From Pseudobdellovibrionaceae bacterium (GTDB taxonomy: Bacteria; Bdellovibrionota; Bdellovibrionia; Bdellovibrionales; JAMPXM01), in NCBI GenBank assembly GCA_947462815.1, contig CANHQR010000039.1, forward strand, positions 1 to 32,852: DNA of 32,852 bases, given 5' to 3'. Within the stretch, counting starts at the first letter, position 1; every line of letters begins with the position of its first letter. The notes beneath the pieces were generated by a model. The model did no database searches. It was not told the DNA's origin and saw only the letters and a list, made by a program, of their open reading frames with translations. Of the stretch, positions 2 through 8,383 are shown one piece after another. A program made the position numbers and the translations under genes.

Positions 2-151
2 GTATTGCGCCACTTCCCCGTGGAGCCCGGAGATGTTTTGCTCACCGGAACACCCTCGGGAGTCGCGAAACTCGAAAAGGGCGATCGAGCTCGGGCTCGG
101 GTCACACTCAATGCGTCTTGGATGGTGGAAGCAGAGTGGAGCTTTACTTGA
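2..151 (+). CDS. Fumarylacetoacetate hydrolase-family protein, C-terminal fragment
   Basis: This is the last 49 codons of a gene entering from the left edge. The reading frame begins at base 2 and ends with TGA at 149-151. The fragment contains GDVLLTGTPSGV, the glycine-rich C-terminal signature of the FAH superfamily (fumarylpyruvate hydrolases, 2-keto-4-pentenoate hydratase/isomerases). In this family the loop lies beside the metal-binding active site. The visible tail finishes with a short beta-rich segment typical of the fold's end. The substrate cannot be told from the fragment. The 3' end overlaps by 8 bases the end of the convergent exported-protein gene on the minus strand, so neither gene has room for a separate terminator between them. 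Confidence 0.85.
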   Translation, partial: VLRHFPVEPGDVLLTGTPSGVAKLEKGDRARARVTLNASWMVEAEWSFT

Positions 152-683
152 GCTCGCAGGAAGGCTTGCGGCCGCGATACTGAGGCTCTGCAACTAAACC
201 AACGCAGCCAAAGCTTCGCGCGGCGGCCGGTCCATAAATTCGAAATTGCAGTTTGTCGCGCACTTCACTGACGCTGTTGGCCTGGAGCCGAAACCGCCAA
301 ACAAACTCCAGCTCATAAAGACCCGTCTCGATCGGGCGAAGGCTCATCACTTTCGTCGGTTGCATTTCATCGAGCGCACGCGGCGCGGCTTCGCCATCGC
401 TACCACCTGTATCAGATACCGACACAAAGAGGTGCTGGAAATCTTTTTGCTGTAAACAAGCCGGCCGAAGGCGTGAGGATCGCCATCCCACAGCCTCCGC
501 GCGGAGCAGCTCCTGGGCCGCCGCCTGCGGAGTCGCACAGGCTGGCTCTTGAGCGACACTTCGCTTTTTGTTCTGCGCAAAGGCGAGCGGGGGCAGCGAC
601 AGGCTGCCCGCCACGATCACGCCCCCAATCACGCCAAAAGCGCCGCCCATCAGACGCGACACGAGCTGCTGCAGATTGATCAT
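144..683 (-). CDS. Small exported protein of unknown function
   Basis: A 179-residue product. I chose the ATG at 683 because it overlaps the TGA of the upstream gene (680-682) as an ATGA junction, which implies translational coupling; an upstream in-frame start at 704 would add seven residues. The N-terminus is a hydrophobic signal peptide (about residues 1-36) ending in AFA before QN. The mature part is rich in Arg and Ala. It has one cysteine soon after the cleavage site and three more later. A predicted beta segment around LYELEFVWRFRL resembles the edge of a small beta domain, but I recognise no family. Its coupling to the NlpC/P60-like exported protein suggests a related envelope role or an accessory partner, which is inference. 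Confidence 0.7.
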   Translation of the reverse strand: MINLQQLVSRLMGGAFGVIGGVIVAGSLSLPPLAFAQNKKRSVAQEPACATPQAAAQELLRAEAVGWRSSRLRPACLQQKDFQHLFVSVSDTGGSDGEAAPRALDEMQPTKVMSLRPIETGLYELEFVWRFRLQANSVSEVRDKLQFRIYGPAAARSFGCVGLVAEPQYRGRKPSCELK

Positions 684-2212
684 CGCGTCCTCCCGTGTGT
701 GCACTCCCGCACGCAGTCTTCACCCTGCACCACGCCGGGTTCATTTTCACGACAACCCGCCACAGCATCTCCCACATGACGAACGATCGCAATTTGCCGC
801 CGGGAACCATTCGGTGTCATTCGCATCGCTTCTCGAGGCCGACCGAACTTTGCTTGGCAGGCGATGATCGCCATTTCAAATAGCTGTGAGCCAAAGCTTC
901 CCTGCTCTCTTACTCTCGAGCGCGCGAGCAGATCCCGAGCCGTCATACGATTCAAGGCCGGATATCCGGCATGGCTCGAACTCTGAATAATATTGAAATC
1001 AAACTGAGCCGGATCGAGATCTCGACTGCACTGACGAACATCGGTAATTCGCGAAAGGCCAAAGGGATCCGGACCTACACTTTCAATGATCAAGGAGTGC
1101 CCATAGGCATCTCCCGGATTATGTTTCGCAAAGACATCGCCCGCCCGAATACTTTCGTTCGCGGTGAAGCTCACCACATTCATGCAATCACCTGATCGCC
1201 GACCGAGGTTAGTGTATTCCGCCGCGCTCAACTGAAAGGCAGAACGAGGATCATCCGTCGCTCGCAGCCTAAGCCCCGCAGCCGCAAAGGTGGCCGACAG
1301 GTAGCCCGAACAATCCAAGGTGGTGAGCTGTCCGCCCGTGCGGTTTCGTCGCGCATTGAAGATATCGACCTGCACGCGATCATTCTGACGTTGGATCTCT
1401 GCCTTGCCACCGACATGGAATACGGGGGGCGACTGGCGCATGTCTCGACAGCCGGGTGCATACTGAGATTGCAAATACGGATGCGAAGCTCGCACCTCGC
1501 CTGTGTCGAAGAATCGCGTCGCAGGATGCAAGTGCTTCTGTGACTCGGGGATTTCCGCCGGCAAGCTGTAGCCGCGCATACTTTCATGTGCGGGAATCTG
1601 TCGATCCAAGGACTCACAGGACTGATGAAGAGTCGCAAAAATTCGTCGAGCCGCATCGCTCACTGGATTGCCCGTTGGACCTCGTCCTGCTGCTCTCGCG
1701 ATGTCTTCAAGAGGTCCGCGAGGCCGCGGCGGAACAACTTCGGGTTGGCGGCAGGCTATGCAAGGCGGCTGCGCTTCCATCTCAGCGCGAGGGTCAGGCG
1801 TCGGAGACGGCGGCGGTGTCGGCGTCGGAGTGGACGCGGGCGGCGGTTGAGATTCATCTCTTCGGCCAGGGAAACGCGCCGGACGAGATTCTGGAGGCTC
1901 GGTTCCGAACACTTCTTCAAGGCTGGGTCGCTCGCGATCGGTGTACGGATCGAGACGCTCCGTACGCGCAGCCTCTCTCTCTCGATAGGAATAACTTCGG
2001 CGACGACGGCGCTCAGGCTCGGCCCAACCGTAAGGGCCCATCGGAAACACGGCACTATTCCAGAAACCCACCATGCTGAGATTAGGTGCGACCCGCATCG
2101 AGGGAGGAATTATGAAAAACGGCGGATAAAAGAATTGCGCCTTCACCTCGAGCGAGATGAAAAGTGTCACGAGAGCCAATGAAACCGGATGCAAACCAAT
2201 TCGAAAGTGCAT
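680..2212 (-). CDS. Exported NlpC/P60-like cysteine hydrolase with proline-rich linker
   Basis: A 510-residue product from the ATG at 2212. The frame stays open to an ATG at 2290, but 2212 gives a canonical signal peptide of about 25 residues ending VKA before QFF. After it come a short Pro/aromatic segment, an Arg-rich stretch, and a long Pro/Thr/Ser linker around residues 115-170. The C-terminal half holds DCSGY (Cys301) followed by GDVFAKHNPGDAYGHS (His372). This matches the Cys and His of the NlpC/P60 and CHAP papain-like amidases that cut peptidoglycan peptides. The third polar catalytic residue is not obvious, so activity is unproven. Extra cysteines could form disulfides in the periplasm. 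It is coupled by ATGA to the small exported gene downstream. Confidence 0.68.
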   Translation of the reverse strand: MHFRIGLHPVSLALVTLFISLEVKAQFFYPPFFIIPPSMRVAPNLSMVGFWNSAVFPMGPYGWAEPERRRRRSYSYREREAARTERLDPYTDRERPSLEEVFGTEPPESRPARFPGRRDESQPPPASTPTPTPPPSPTPDPRAEMEAQPPCIACRQPEVVPPRPRGPLEDIARAAGRGPTGNPVSDAARRIFATLHQSCESLDRQIPAHESMRGYSLPAEIPESQKHLHPATRFFDTGEVRASHPYLQSQYAPGCRDMRQSPPVFHVGGKAEIQRQNDRVQVDIFNARRNRTGGQLTTLDCSGYLSATFAAAGLRLRATDDPRSAFQLSAAEYTNLGRRSGDCMNVVSFTANESIRAGDVFAKHNPGDAYGHSLIIESVGPDPFGLSRITDVRQCSRDLDPAQFDFNIIQSSSHAGYPALNRMTARDLLARSRVREQGSFGSQLFEMAIIACQAKFGRPREAMRMTPNGSRRQIAIVRHVGDAVAGCRENEPGVVQGEDCVRECTHGRTR

Positions 2213-2406
2213 CGTCTCGCTATCGGACGTTTGCGCGAATCTCTTGAGATTTTTAGCGTGGGCCACTTGATTGTGCTCAACCAAATCCATCTCCCAAGCA
2301 CCCGTCGCAACGGCGTCTTTTCGAGCCCCTCGCAGTTAACCTAAGTATTTAAGTTAACTTGCAATTATGGCTTTTTTAGCACAATCAACGGGCCCAGTTT
2401 ACAAGC
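2213..2406 (-). promoter_or_regulatory. Intergenic region with an AT-rich inverted repeat
   Basis: This gap separates the NlpC-like gene from the caspase-like gene upstream of it. It contains an inverted repeat near 2335-2366 (AGTTAAC, then 12 bases, then GTTAACT, with matching flanks). This is the only clearly AT-rich patch nearby. It has no T-run typical of a terminator, so an operator or promoter for the NlpC-like gene is the more natural reading. No convincing -35/-10 pair was found. Confidence 0.3.
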
Positions 2407-3909
2407 TTAATGAGAACGATTTCTAAAGAAGTTCTGCAAACGCAGAGGGGACACCGGTCGCCCCGCGTATTCATTGAAGGTGGAGAGTGCTCCGTCAAAG
2501 TCTTCTTCGCAGCGCATAGCAAGAGTTGAGTCGATCGCCAAGAAAGTCTGCGCCATATTCGATTCAAAGTAGGCGTTTGGCCCCATCAACATCAGTCCCG
2601 TCTGAGGCGCCGCTCGCCGCAAGCCATCGCCAAAAAAACGTGCCGAATCGCAAGCGAACATTCCCAAAATCTTGGGAGCACGGCCACTCAGTTGTGCGGC
2701 CTGTAGCTCGGTCAACAGCCGATTGTAACCCGGTCGCTCTCGACGATAATAATCAAAGTCGGTTCGACGACCTGAATTCAGAACAGAGGGCGAAAAGTCA
2801 GGTCCGCCGCCCTGACGAGCGTGTCCCACATACAGAAGGAAGTCGGCCTCGCGAAGTCCACTGTAGAAGTTATCTTCCGCACGCAGAGACTGAATCTTTT
2901 GATCCAGAGTCTCGCGTCGATTCCTCGTTTCAGAATTCGAATGCGAGCTCGTCGACAATCGCAATTTCACACGATGAGTACGACCATTTGGACCCACGAC
3001 ATTCTTCGTCAAGAGTTCCATATCATCGGGATCGCGACTGAATCCACAGGCCGCTACACCCGGCTCGCAAGGCTTGGTCAGTCTCTCGATCAGAGCGGCG
3101 GCTTGAATTCGATCTTCTGTGGTTTGAAAAGCATCTAAGTATCCAAACGCAATCCGCATATCAATTTCGGGCTTCGAGTAGAAGTTTTCCCAAGCGCGAC
3201 GGCAAGGCGTTCGCGAATCGAAAACGCTATCCGCCGTCGTCGCGCCGCAATCCATACAACTGGGCTGCATATCGCGTACGGCATGATTGGCGAGGTCAAC
3301 AATGTTGGTGTAGAGCTCACGCGCTTGATTTTCGGTGAGATCAAGGCCGCTTGCGCCGACACCCGTACCAGCTGATTGTGGCTGTGTCCGCTGTTCAGAT
3401 GTCGGTGTCGAACGAGGCCGAGCTGGAGGTGTGGCGGTTGCTCGCGGAGCCGAGGGCGCCGGAGGCGAGACTCGAGATTGCGGGGTGGGACTCGCCGAAT
3501 CCTGTGCAGTTGGCACAGCGGCGCCGCGTGACGAAGGCGTAGCCGATGCTCGCGTGACCGGCGTTCCTCCTACTTGAGGTGAAGCAAAGGGTCGAGGCGG
3601 CGGCAAAGGTGCGCTCAGCTGCTGAGCGGGCACAAGCATAATGGGCGTACCCACCGCACGAGGTGTCGGCGTTGCACGAGCCGAGCCTGAGGCAGCACGC
3701 GGACTCGCCTCGCCCCGTACGGGAGGACTGAGCAAAGGTAACGGCGGCAACTCCTCGACTTCAATGCCACCAGTTCGCGACTGAGCTTTCACCTGAGGAG
3801 CTGTCATCACACAGATCACCGAAAACAAGAATACGAACGGCAGCACCCGAGCCCCATCACCGCCCAATTGAAAGTCCGACTTGTGTCCTCGAATCCGGAG
3901 AGTGTTCAC
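2407..3909 (-). CDS. Exported caspase-fold (clan CD)-like protein with Pro/Ala/Ser-rich linker
   Basis: A 500-residue product starting at GTG 3909. That GTG overlaps the upstream stop as GTGA and is preceded by GGAGGAG; the frame also allows an ATG at 3927. A signal peptide ends near VKA before QSR (about residue 43). A low-complexity linker rich in Pro, Ala, Ser and Thr covers about residues 50-185. The C-terminal domain has a hydrophobic strand running into GH (YVGHARQGGG, His363) and, 57 residues later, a strand running into Cys (LGMFACDS, Cys420). This His/Cys arrangement at strand ends is the hallmark of caspase-fold peptidases (caspase, CHAT, clostripain, gingipain types). Further cysteine pairs, including CMDC, lie before the dyad. 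Substrate and activation are unknown. Assignment to clan CD rests on motif layout only. Confidence 0.6.
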   Translation of the reverse strand: MNTLRIRGHKSDFQLGGDGARVLPFVFLFSVICVMTAPQVKAQSRTGGIEVEELPPLPLLSPPVRGEASPRAASGSARATPTPRAVGTPIMLVPAQQLSAPLPPPRPFASPQVGGTPVTRASATPSSRGAAVPTAQDSASPTPQSRVSPPAPSAPRATATPPARPRSTPTSEQRTQPQSAGTGVGASGLDLTENQARELYTNIVDLANHAVRDMQPSCMDCGATTADSVFDSRTPCRRAWENFYSKPEIDMRIAFGYLDAFQTTEDRIQAAALIERLTKPCEPGVAACGFSRDPDDMELLTKNVVGPNGRTHRVKLRLSTSSHSNSETRNRRETLDQKIQSLRAEDNFYSGLREADFLLYVGHARQGGGPDFSPSVLNSGRRTDFDYYRRERPGYNRLLTELQAAQLSGRAPKILGMFACDSARFFGDGLRRAAPQTGLMLMGPNAYFESNMAQTFLAIDSTLAMRCEEDFDGALSTFNEYAGRPVSPLRLQNFFRNRSH

Positions 3910-4916
3910 GGCTCTCCTCCGGACCATTTCTTGAGCGCGTCTTGGCAGGCTCTGACAACCTGAGCATCATCTTTCAGATCACAGGCCTTCGGAAGCGCTC
4001 GCTTTAAGGACTTTCGATACGCGGCCTCCGGCTGATCCCAAGACGCGATACTTCGGTAGACTCGTTCACGCAATTGCTTCGGCTTTGATTCGCGTGCCGC
4101 ACGTAAGAACTTTTCAACATGCGAAGGATTCGTCGGCGACAGAGTCAACCAGTCCAGTGCCGCCAGGCGAATTTCAGGATCGGGAGACTTGAGCAACAGA
4201 TCCAGCTCGCGCGCCTCCGCTGGAACTCCTGAGTCCATCGCAGCCGTCATCAGAGATAAGCGTGTCACGATCGATGAACTCGAATTATTGATGACGGAGA
4301 ACAAGGCTCGTCTTCGAAGCGAGTCGAGTTTTCCAGCCTGTACCGATGCGGCCGCCCACTGCGCCCAGATTTTGGAGTCCGCGGTTCGAGTCGCTCTTTG
4401 ATCCTCTTTGGCCGAGGAGCTGCGGGCACCAACGTTTCCACTCGCGATCAGCGGATCGAGCTGAGCTTCTAGAGCCGTCCACAAAGTTTCATTGGCCGAG
4501 GCCGGCATACCCACACTTCGCCATCGAGCCATCGCGTCCAGGGCGTAGTGGCGATCGTTTTCGTTCCCGCCTCTGATCTCGAGAGCCAATTGCTTGGCCA
4601 AACGCTGCACATCGCTCTGAGGTAACTTTCCCAGTCTATTTTTAATGGCATCTTCCGCCGAATCATCGGCTCGAAGATCGCCCAAGAGAGAGCGCACCCA
4701 CCTGTGATCTGCAGATGAATTCCTCGCCGGCTGCGCCTCGACATCCGACTGAGGAGTCAACGACAGCGGCTTGGATTTCGTCTCAGCCCCTGACTCGTTC
4801 GAGGCAGCCAGGAGGAACAGAGTTCCCAATACTGCAAGACATCGCACGGCGGCTTCTCGGCCGCGACAAAAATCGACGATGTCCTGACGACGTTTCTCTT
4901 TCACAGTCTTCCCCAT
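3906..4916 (-). CDS. Exported alpha-helical (HEAT-like) repeat protein
   Basis: A product of about 336 residues. I chose the ATG at 4916, but the start is uncertain: the frame also opens at GTG 4961, and a later GTG just before RCLAVLGTLFLL would give a shorter signal peptide. The hydrophobic segment CLAVLGTLFLLAA followed by SNESGAE looks like an export signal. The rest is a chain of amphipathic helices with recurring Leu/Ala patterns, for example around EIRLAALDWL and ALFSVINN, consistent with HEAT or ARM-type repeats. These normally serve as binding scaffolds. It is the first gene of the cluster and shares a GTGA overlap with the caspase-like gene, so the two are probably made together. 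Confidence 0.6.
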   Translation of the reverse strand: MGKTVKEKRRQDIVDFCRGREAAVRCLAVLGTLFLLAASNESGAETKSKPLSLTPQSDVEAQPARNSSADHRWVRSLLGDLRADDSAEDAIKNRLGKLPQSDVQRLAKQLALEIRGGNENDRHYALDAMARWRSVGMPASANETLWTALEAQLDPLIASGNVGARSSSAKEDQRATRTADSKIWAQWAAASVQAGKLDSLRRRALFSVINNSSSSIVTRLSLMTAAMDSGVPAEARELDLLLKSPDPEIRLAALDWLTLSPTNPSHVEKFLRAARESKPKQLRERVYRSIASWDQPEAAYRKSLKRALPKACDLKDDAQVVRACQDALKKWSGGEP

Positions 4917-5090: not shown

Positions 5091-5336
5091 ATGCGACGAG
5101 ATCGAAGTGAGGAACGAATTCCTGAACTGGACTTACATGGCCGTCGCGTGGATGAAGTTGCGGACCAGGTCGATCGCTTTCTGCGGACTTGTCAGGCAAA
5201 GAAGGCCGTGCGAGCGCGAATCATCACAGGGCGAGGCACCGGGGCCGTTGAGCGCGCGACCCTGGACTGGTTGCGACTCGGCGGATTCCCCACCAAACGC
5301 GAAAACCCTGGCTCTTGGATTGTTTTTCTCGATTGA
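5091..5336 (+). CDS. Stand-alone Smr-domain protein
   Basis: An 81-residue protein that is almost entirely an Smr (small MutS-related) domain. LDLHG at residues 13-17 begins the domain, the helix after it carries the conserved acidic pattern, and TGRGTG at 46-51 forms the Gly-rich loop. Smr domains bind branched DNA or RNA and many are nucleases; short stand-alone versions occur widely in proteobacteria. No MutS2 part is attached. The gene is 159 bases ahead of orn on the same strand, giving a two-gene nucleic-acid-processing context. The start codon has no good ribosome binding site, so it may be leaderless or initiate differently. Confidence 0.82.
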   Translation: MRRDRSEERIPELDLHGRRVDEVADQVDRFLRTCQAKKAVRARIITGRGTGAVERATLDWLRLGGFPTKRENPGSWIVFLD

Positions 5337-5495: not shown

Positions 5496-6056
5496 ATGGC
5501 AAAAGCTCCGAACTCAATGACGAAAATGCTCTGGTTGGATATGGAAATGACGGGTTTAGAAGTGACCCGCGAAGTTCCCATCGAAGTCGCCGTCCTGATT
5601 TGCGATCTTCAGTTCAACGAAATTGAATCCTATCACGCCATCATTAAGCAGCCTCAAAGCTACATCGATAAAATGGACGATTGGAATCGAGATCATCATG
5701 GAGCTTCGGGCCTCATCGCCCAGATCCCGCAAGGCCGAGACCCTGCCGCTGTTGAGTCCGACCTTGTGCAACTGATCGATCGGCATTTTCAGGGCGAGGC
5801 CGCCGTTTTGTGCGGAAACTCCATCAATCAAGACCGACTCTTCATCAACGCTCACTTTCCGATTCTGGCTCGCAAGCTGCACTACCGCATGCTGGATGTC
5901 ACAGCTTGGAAAATCGTGTTTCAAAGCCTTTATGGGATAAAGTTCGAGAAAAAGAATCAGCATCGTGCCATCGACGACATTCGCGAATCGATTGCCGAGC
6001 TTCGTCACTATATGCAGTTCATCAAAGTCCAAGAATCTTCGACGGGATTGAATTGA
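5496..6056 (+). CDS. orn: Oligoribonuclease
   Basis: Degrades RNA di- to pentanucleotides, including pGpG from cyclic-di-GMP turnover, in the cytoplasm. The 186-residue length fits the family. The DEDDh signature is visible: WLDMEMTG near the N-terminus supplies the first Asp/Glu, NSINQDR the second Asp, and HRAIDDI the His and last Asp. I chose ATG 5496; a second in-frame ATG at 5517 is equally plausible, and neither has a strong ribosome binding site. The frame is open further upstream, but those residues are unlike the family. The stop overlaps a TTG start of the next gene, suggesting coupling. Orn is common in gamma-, beta- and some delta-type bacteria and in Actinobacteria. Confidence 0.93.
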   Translation: MAKAPNSMTKMLWLDMEMTGLEVTREVPIEVAVLICDLQFNEIESYHAIIKQPQSYIDKMDDWNRDHHGASGLIAQIPQGRDPAAVESDLVQLIDRHFQGEAAVLCGNSINQDRLFINAHFPILARKLHYRMLDVTAWKIVFQSLYGIKFEKKNQHRAIDDIRESIAELRHYMQFIKVQESSTGLN

Positions 6057-6985: not shown

Positions 6986-8383
6986 TCAGTAGCGATAGTG
7001 TTCCGGCTTGTAGGGACCGTTTTTCGGCAAGCCGAGATATCCCGACTGTTTGTCGGAAAGCTCAGTCAAATGCACACCGAGCTTTTTCAAATGCAAGCGA
7101 GCCACTCGCTCATCCAATTCCTTCGGCAAGCGATAGACCGCGATCGTTTTGTACTTCTCCCGATTCATCCAAAGTTCCATCTGCGCCAAGACCTGATTGG
7201 TGAATGAGGTCGACATGACGAAGGAGGGGTGGCCGGTCGCACAGCCGAGATTCACCAAACGGCCTTTGGCGAGAACGATAATTTCTCGGCCGTTCTTCAG
7301 TGTGTGGATATCAACCTGCGGCTTCACTTCACGCATCGACGAATTCTTGTTGAGCCAAGCCATATCGATCTCGACATCAAAGTGTCCGATATTGCAGACG
7401 ATCGCGCGATGTTTCATCGCCGAGAAGTGCTTCTCTGTGATGATATCGCAGCAGCCTGTCGACGTGACAAAGACATCGCCGACCGGTGCCGCTTGCTCCA
7501 TCGTGGTGACTTCAAAGCCTTCCATTGCGGCCTGAAGAGCGCAGATCGGATCGATCTCGGTGATCAAAACCCGCGCACCGTAATGACGCATGGAGTGCGC
7601 GCAACCCTTACCCACATCTCCATAACCCGCTACAACCACAACTTTGCCCGCGAGCATGACATCGGTCGCTCGCTTGATTCCATCCGCCAGCGACTCGCGG
7701 CAACCATAGAGGTTGTCGAACTTCGACTTGGTGACCGAGTCGTTGACGTTGATGGCTGGGATTTTCAGCTTTCCCGAGGCGAGCATTTTCTCGAGATTGT
7801 GAACGCCTGTGGTGGTCTCTTCGCTGACGCCGATCACTTTCTTCAACATCGGAGCGAAGCGATCCTCATGCATCATGATGGTCAAGTCGCCGCCGTCGTC
7901 GAGAATGATGTCGTAGCCTTCAGCTCCCCATCCCGTGATCGTCTGTTCCACACACCAGTTGTACTCTTCTTCAGTTTCACCTTTCCAAGCAAAAACCGGG
8001 ATGCCCGCGGCTGCGATGGCGACCGCGGCGTGATCTTGAGTCGAAAAGATGTTGCAGCTCGACCAACGGACCTTGGCGCCCAAGTGAGTCAAGGTCTCAA
8101 TCAACACTGCGGTTTGGATCGTCATATGAAGACAGCCTGTGATTCGAGCGCCTTTCAGCGGTTGCTTGGCGCCATACTCCTCACGAAGTGCCATCAAACC
8201 CGGCATTTCGGTTTCAGCCAGACGAATCTCTTCTCGACCCCACCGAGCCAAATCCTCGAAGGTCTTGGCATCGTCCATCGCGGCTCGGCAGACTCGATAG
8301 TCCGGGCTTCCGTCGGCCTTTTTCGGAACACCGGTCAAAGCTGAAGTTGCGGTCGAAGACGATAAGCCTGCATTAAATGCCAT
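6986..8383 (-). CDS. ahcY: S-adenosylhomocysteinase
   Basis: Hydrolyses S-adenosylhomocysteine to adenosine and homocysteine with tightly bound NAD, clearing the product inhibitor of methyltransferases. The 465-residue length fits bacterial enzymes. Visible signatures are [13 protein letters not shown] near residue 86, [14 protein letters not shown] at 214-227 (the catalytic Lys/Asp region), the Rossmann motif [10 protein letters not shown] at 251-260, and the C-terminal Lys/Tyr-rich tail ending PEHYRY that closes the NAD site of the neighbouring subunit. Initiation is from ATG 8383 after GAGGTGGATCT. TTGACTTGACC at 8443-8453 may be a -35 region, but no clear -10 follows at normal spacing. 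No SAH riboswitch match was found in the leader. It appears to be monocistronic and ends at a shared terminator. Confidence 0.97.

Follow-up and report, generated by a model that had tools for sequence, protein, structure and literature searches.

A predicted exported clan-CD-like cysteine peptidase family and its coupled HEAT-like partner at a four-gene locus of a Bdellovibrionota genome

The window, by which we mean the whole 32,852-nucleotide stretch of DNA that was analysed, is contig 39 of a 3.43 Mb draft genome of a Pseudobdellovibrionaceae bacterium. Among relatives of the locus, those with names belong to Bdellovibrionota MAGs and Bdellovibrio species. Four open reading frames on its minus strand were confirmed, the smallest of which is open over 144-704 (Table 1). 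They make up two pairs, referred to here as unit 1 (a HEAT-like and a caspase-like protein) and unit 2 (an NlpC/P60-like and a small protein). A preliminary description had reported four exported genes on one strand, coupling within each pair, Pro-rich linkers, and two Cys/His pairs, and all of these are present. The couplings can be read directly: GTGA at 3906-3909 holds the stop codon of the HEAT gene and the start codon of the caspase-like gene, with GGAGGAG upstream, and ATGA at 680-683 holds the stop codon of the NlpC-like gene and the start codon of the small gene, with GGAGGA. Because of this second overlap, we take the small gene to begin at 683 and not at 704. As judged by eye, all four proteins have Sec-signal-peptide-like N termini (VKA-QS, VKA-QF, AFA-QN, and SGA-ET), and a hydrophobic N-terminal segment is present in 51 of 53 homologues of the caspase-like protein, 19 of 21 of the HEAT protein, and 19 of 20 of the NlpC-like protein, compared with 3 of 21 control open reading frames. 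An anti-phage defence system was rejected as a reading, as the PADLOC defence models gave no matches (0) to the four proteins.

Table 1. Features of the locus (positions are those of the window)
Feature	Position	Strand	Remarks
smr-domain gene	5091..5336	+	divergent; marks conserved site
orn	about 5496-6056	+	neighbour on the other strand from the four-gene region
ahcY	6986-8383	+	opposite-strand neighbour after orn; map also in this stretch
Exported HEAT-like solenoid protein	3906..4916	-	upstream member of unit 1, 336 aa
Exported caspase-like (clan-CD-like) putative cysteine peptidase (P0003)	2407..3909	-	catalytic member of unit 1, 500 aa; starts at GTG
Pro-rich low-complexity linker of P0003	3340..3777	-	residues 45-190; signal peptide to catalytic domain
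Asp259 of P0003	3133..3135	-	part of GYxD, shortly after beta-1; near-invariant
Caspase-like domain of P0003	2410..3288	-	residues 208-500; AlphaFold2 pLDDT 91.5, pTM 0.89
Putative catalytic His363 of P0003	2821..2823	-	in YVGHARQGGGPDF; invariant
Putative catalytic Cys420 of P0003	2650..2652	-	in ILGMFACDSA; invariant
Inverted repeat AGTTAACCTAA-4-TTAAGTTAACT	2334..2359	.	in AT-rich inter-unit gap
Exported NlpC/P60-like putative peptidoglycan hydrolase (P0002)	680..2212	-	510 aa; unit 2 first gene
Putative catalytic Cys301 of P0002	1310..1312	-	in DCSG; invariant 22/22
Putative catalytic His372 of P0002	1097..1099	-	invariant 22/22
Asp382 of P0002	1067-1069	-	invariant; candidate third residue
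Small exported Cys-containing protein	144..683	-	unit 2 second gene; ATG start

Homologues of the caspase-like protein were found in 44 of the 99 genomes of the order by single-sequence search and in 46 of 99 by profile search. The family spans the phylum Bdellovibrionota, Bdellovibrio bacteriovorus included, and also occurs, as outliers, in Verrucomicrobium and Elusimicrobia. Most homologues lack the Pro-rich linker of the window protein. His363 and Cys420, which had been proposed as a catalytic pair, are invariant in an initial 42 of 42 and then in 54 of 54 homologues, and lie within the family motifs YxGH[SA]RxGGGPDF (His) and [AS]CxS (Cys). No member reached any family in Pfam, NCBIfam, or the PDB. 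A search for a C14 gene in the window's genome found none, and a search for CHAT across the genomes gave no match.

The catalytic domain was modelled with AlphaFold2 from an alignment of window residues 208-500 with 53 relatives (in domain numbering, His363 is residue 156 and Cys420 is residue 213). The predicted chain runs from β-1 (41-48) through a helix and an extra strand (89-98) to β-2 (104-113), and then, after a further helix, through β-3 (150-154), a helix, and β-4 (207-211), followed at the C terminus by a helix, β-5, and a helix. His156 lies just past β-3 and Cys213 two residues past β-4. In clan CD, the catalytic His follows β-3 and the Cys follows β-4 (PMC4357240, PMC4626109), with a Gly before the His (PMC12445089). 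The order of elements in the model fits this arrangement, the Gly is found as the invariant G155 of the domain, and the His-then-Cys order that a clan CD dyad requires is strictly kept. The domain gave no match to the PDB in Foldseek at E ≤ 0.001; caspase-4 and caspase-1 appeared at ranks 29-50 (probability 0.66-0.77, TM 0.35-0.42, with no higher TM to the query in any other listed match), and the top rows included GTPases and α/β hydrolases. As to the caspase fold that had been proposed, the model is confident and clan-CD-like in the order of its elements, with a weak likeness to caspases themselves.

We also compared the family with individual clan CD families. The hhalign comparisons with C14 (0.3%) and C11 (0.1%) were non-significant, although the catalytic Cys regions came into register in the C14 alignment. 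Membership of C14 (caspase/metacaspase) is unsupported, given this score and the absence of any Pfam C14 match in 54 members, and so is membership of C11 (clostripain), given its score and the Ser/Ala-Arg that follows the His in place of the Gly of the His-Gly-(X)n-Ala-Cys motif. Membership of C50 by family profile is likewise unsupported, as just two members matched separase, weakly (best E 0.021, far below the cut-off). Because clan CD families often have no detectable sequence homology, as has been said of YabG (PMC12445089), we do not regard the non-significant C14 and C11 comparisons as decisive. The family probably belongs to clan CD.

By following up weak matches of the caspase-like profile, we reached another exported family (L213-L221), with proteins of about 420 aa and the motifs YxGHSGLGGN and FFFDxCSSYSYY. 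The sister family has no PDB match, and the members scanned have no match in Pfam. Profile alignment joins it to the caspase-like family over 201 columns (98.4% probability, E 6e-15), and the two motifs line up in register; by profile, the two families are homologous.

These results bear on whether the caspase-like protein is a peptidase at all. It might instead be an exported α/β protein whose conserved Cys and His have another role, such as a transferase, a binding protein, or a dead enzyme, a reading that draws on the GTPases and α/β hydrolases near the top of the Foldseek results and on the lack of a significant fold or profile match to any known peptidase. We consider it unlikely, however, as the His and Cys are strictly invariant at the clan CD positions and the motifs of the related sister family, GHSG and DxCSS, are near-canonical. 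Furthermore, the sub-threshold Pfam matches include some to clan CD families, namely C50, which in one homologue (L143) is positioned over the His motif, and gingipain C25 (one member, E 0.07), and at four loci a gene for a trypsin-like protease takes the upstream coupled place otherwise held by the HEAT gene.

The HEAT protein of the window matches Pfam HEAT_2 at E 6e-4, below the cut-off, and is homologous to a wider family of HEAT partners (hhalign 98.9%, E 1e-17), among which a C-terminal C...C pair is conserved. In two genomes, the HEAT and caspase-like proteins are naturally fused in one open reading frame (G005:C713 and G062:C6). The model of the G005 fusion has a confident helical solenoid at residues about 45-230, which Foldseek matched to HEAT/ARM/alphaRep solenoids with a probability of 1.0; its catalytic half was poorly modelled from a shallow alignment. 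A HEAT-type solenoid, defined by tandem antiparallel helix pairs, is predicted in the fused homologue, and the window protein is linked to this family by hhalign.

The association between the two genes is specific. In every one of the 21 pairs examined, the window's included, the HEAT and caspase-like genes overlap, and a profile search of the 99 genomes returned 19 HEAT matches, of which 17 either immediately precede a caspase-like gene or are fused to one. A further match (G087) is at a contig edge in a genome where a truncated caspase-like gene lies at the edge of another contig, and the last (G009:C669) is an orphan. In a caspase-domain tree, the HEAT label has to change 4 times, compared with 18.2 times in shuffles, and we conclude that the pairing is old and stable. 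About half of the caspase-like homologues, those of Bdellovibrio included, have no HEAT partner, indicating that the peptidase does not always depend on one. Upstream coupling in every examined pair means that the HEAT protein is made first, as in many protease-inhibitor pairs, and its role could accordingly be to inhibit or guard the peptidase, and not to serve as a substrate adaptor or permanent subunit. We think this rather unlikely, as the natural fusions better suit a permanent subunit and many caspase-like homologues do without HEAT.

The first protein of unit 2 scores 14.8 bits against Pfam NlpC/P60, under the 23-bit cut-off. All 22 NlpC-like homologues match PF00877 (best 1.2e-6), and the proposed Cys301 and His372 do not vary among them, so the identification of an exported NlpC/P60-like protein holds for the family, with the window member itself below the gathering score. 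The protein resembles NlpC/P60 endopeptidases (PF00877; Spr/MepS, RipA) in its DCSG nucleophile and later His and Asp, and differs from them in having extra invariant cysteines and a Pro-rich N-terminal region. The family is present in 56 of the 99 genomes. The small partner is recognizable solely in a sister genus, where it also directly follows the NlpC gene; in G094, a small protein adjoining NlpC has a similar Cys pattern, with a non-significant hhalign score.

The preliminary description had treated the four genes as a single cluster. Each pair does stay together in relatives, but the four do not: the caspase-like and NlpC families are neighbours in the window genome alone among the 99. 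Where another genome has both, the NlpC-like gene is on a different contig or far off, and in closed genomes the two are hundreds of kilobases or more apart (in G051, at 2.14 and 0.70 Mb), with two exceptions at about 130-160 kb. At the site marked by smr, orn, and ahcY, most relatives, from three genera, have HEAT-caspase and no NlpC (G010, G008, G004, G012, and G002), and orn and ahcY also adjoin HEAT-caspase in G005. In the sister genus (G003 and G007), the smr-orn site carries NlpC-small without HEAT-caspase, and the window alone has both. Since this site can hold either unit by itself, the units are separable. The idea that unit 1 was inserted between smr and unit 2 was dropped, since relatives carry unit 1 itself beside smr and orn; differential loss is no less likely than insertion of unit 1 at that site, and a shared ancestral four-gene cluster with different losses is possible.

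A single four-gene module was rejected on gene neighbourhood across the 99 genomes of the order. A functional envelope module in which the protease would process or activate the NlpC/P60 enzyme accords with the adjacency, common strand, and export of all four proteins, and with the occupation of one site by unit 1 in three genera and by unit 2 in a sister genus, as might follow from losses in a four-gene ancestor. We judge it improbable, as the units never occur together in the other 98 genomes, are far apart in closed ones, and are divided by an AT-rich gap of 116-194 bases with an inverted repeat of its own. This repeat may be an operator or promoter of unit 2; a scan of the gap for sigma-70 promoters and terminators found none that was convincing.

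On balance, we lean towards two separable units: an exported complex of a HEAT protein and a clan-CD-like peptidase, and an exported NlpC/P60 peptidase with a small partner. In unit 1, coupled translation would yield two exported proteins, a HEAT solenoid and a clan-CD-like cysteine peptidase, most likely joined in a single extracytoplasmic complex. Translated first, the solenoid would bind the catalytic subunit and hold it, restrain it, or feed it substrate. The helical region of separase offers an analogy for such control (layout: PMC4626109). The peptidase may cut after a basic residue by means of His363 and Cys420, with Asp259 in the S1 position. In MALT1 and gingipain, an Asp that recognizes P1 sits at the corresponding place (PMC4626109), and it is because the near-invariant Asp of the GYxD motif appears to occupy this position, that of the P1-selecting residue of other clan CD peptidases, that we guess at a basic P1. 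Unit 2 would comprise an exported cell-wall peptidase of the NlpC/P60 type and a small exported partner, perhaps its regulator.

Each kind of protein involved (a clan-CD-like dyad, a HEAT solenoid, NlpC/P60) is already known. Separase (clan CD, C50) is similar to unit 1 in combining a helical HEAT/ARM/TPR-like region with a C-terminal caspase-like domain and a His-Cys dyad (PMC4626109). Unlike separase, which acts in chromosome cohesion, unit 1 would belong to the bacterial envelope; it is exported and small (a HEAT part of about 200 aa, mostly encoded by a gene of its own), and has no sequence homology to separase above threshold. Prokaryotic metacaspases and orthocaspases (C14) also have a His-Cys dyad after β-3 and β-4, and one cyanobacterial metacaspase has HEAT_PBS repeats (PMC3501461), but the caspase-like family lacks a Pfam C14 match and a significant hhalign score. 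Clostripain (C11) and gingipain (C25) are, likewise, exported bacterial clan CD peptidases, themselves with a basic P1 preference; the motif GH[SA]RxGGGPDF, with Ser or Ala after the His, differs from the His-Gly of clostripain. An exported caspase-like protein had been called unusual. It is less so given that clostripain and gingipains are secreted and that in many prokaryotic metacaspases the N terminus bears a helix or a signal peptide (PMC3501461, PMC12445089).

We found no description of the exported caspase-like family, its sister family, or the HEAT pairing in the libraries and papers that were searched, and open-licence literature on Bdellovibrio caspases, metacaspases, or clan CD held nothing on the caspase-like family. 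We put at about even the chance that this family and its sister are a new exported clan CD group, widespread in Bdellovibrionota, of which one large branch forms an obligate, separase-like, extracytoplasmic complex with HEAT. Present findings tie neither unit to predation, and the caspase-like family extends, as noted above, to Verrucomicrobium and Elusimicrobia. For the Bdellovibrio lineage, no catalogue of exported cysteine peptidases exists. The caspase-like gene is a candidate for knockout in a predator, which could ask whether its target is prey, the cell's own envelope, or other exported proteins. If our reading is correct, the extracytoplasmic pair of solenoid and caspase-like protein would provide a simple bacterial model for the control of caspase-like proteases by helical repeats.

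At four loci the caspase-like gene is immediately preceded, with an overlap or a gap of at most 8 bases, by a gene for a trypsin-like (S1) protein, lipoprotein-like in three of them, and the two genes possibly encode a protease cascade pair. In several relatives a small lipoprotein-like gene adjoins the HEAT-caspase pair on the opposite strand.

Weak profile matches led to a second exported family of about 420 aa, which is homologous to the caspase-like family, carries the motifs YxGHSGLGG and FFDxCSSY, and has members in several genomes of the order; the members scanned had no Pfam match.

The window's genome holds another caspase-like gene, which lacks a HEAT partner and is directly followed by an overlapping gene for a 275-aa exported protein, and also a second NlpC-like gene. 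At L104, each tandem NlpC-like copy is followed, with a 4-base overlap, by a small exported gene; these small proteins share a Cys spacing with that of the window, and their similarity to it is not significant. The inverted repeat upstream of the window's NlpC-like gene is operator-like.

Additional features (L, homologue locus; G000, the window's genome; C, contig)
Feature	Location	Remark
Tandem duplication of NlpC-like gene	L104:1178-5251	
Second caspase-like gene and second NlpC-like gene	G000:C30:30246-31019 (L048); G000:C19:28606-29358 (L097)	window's genome
Second exported, unnamed family	L213, L214, L215, L216, L217, L218, L219, L220, L221	
Trypsin-like (S1) gene	L133:8831-9865; L148:8883-9872; L158:8730-9692; L027	directly 5' of caspase-like gene
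Near-perfect 11-base inverted repeat	window 2334-2359	AT-rich gap 5' of NlpC-like gene
Small lipoprotein-like gene	L116, L120, L122, L125 (downstream), L205:1019-1390	strand opposite to HEAT-caspase pair
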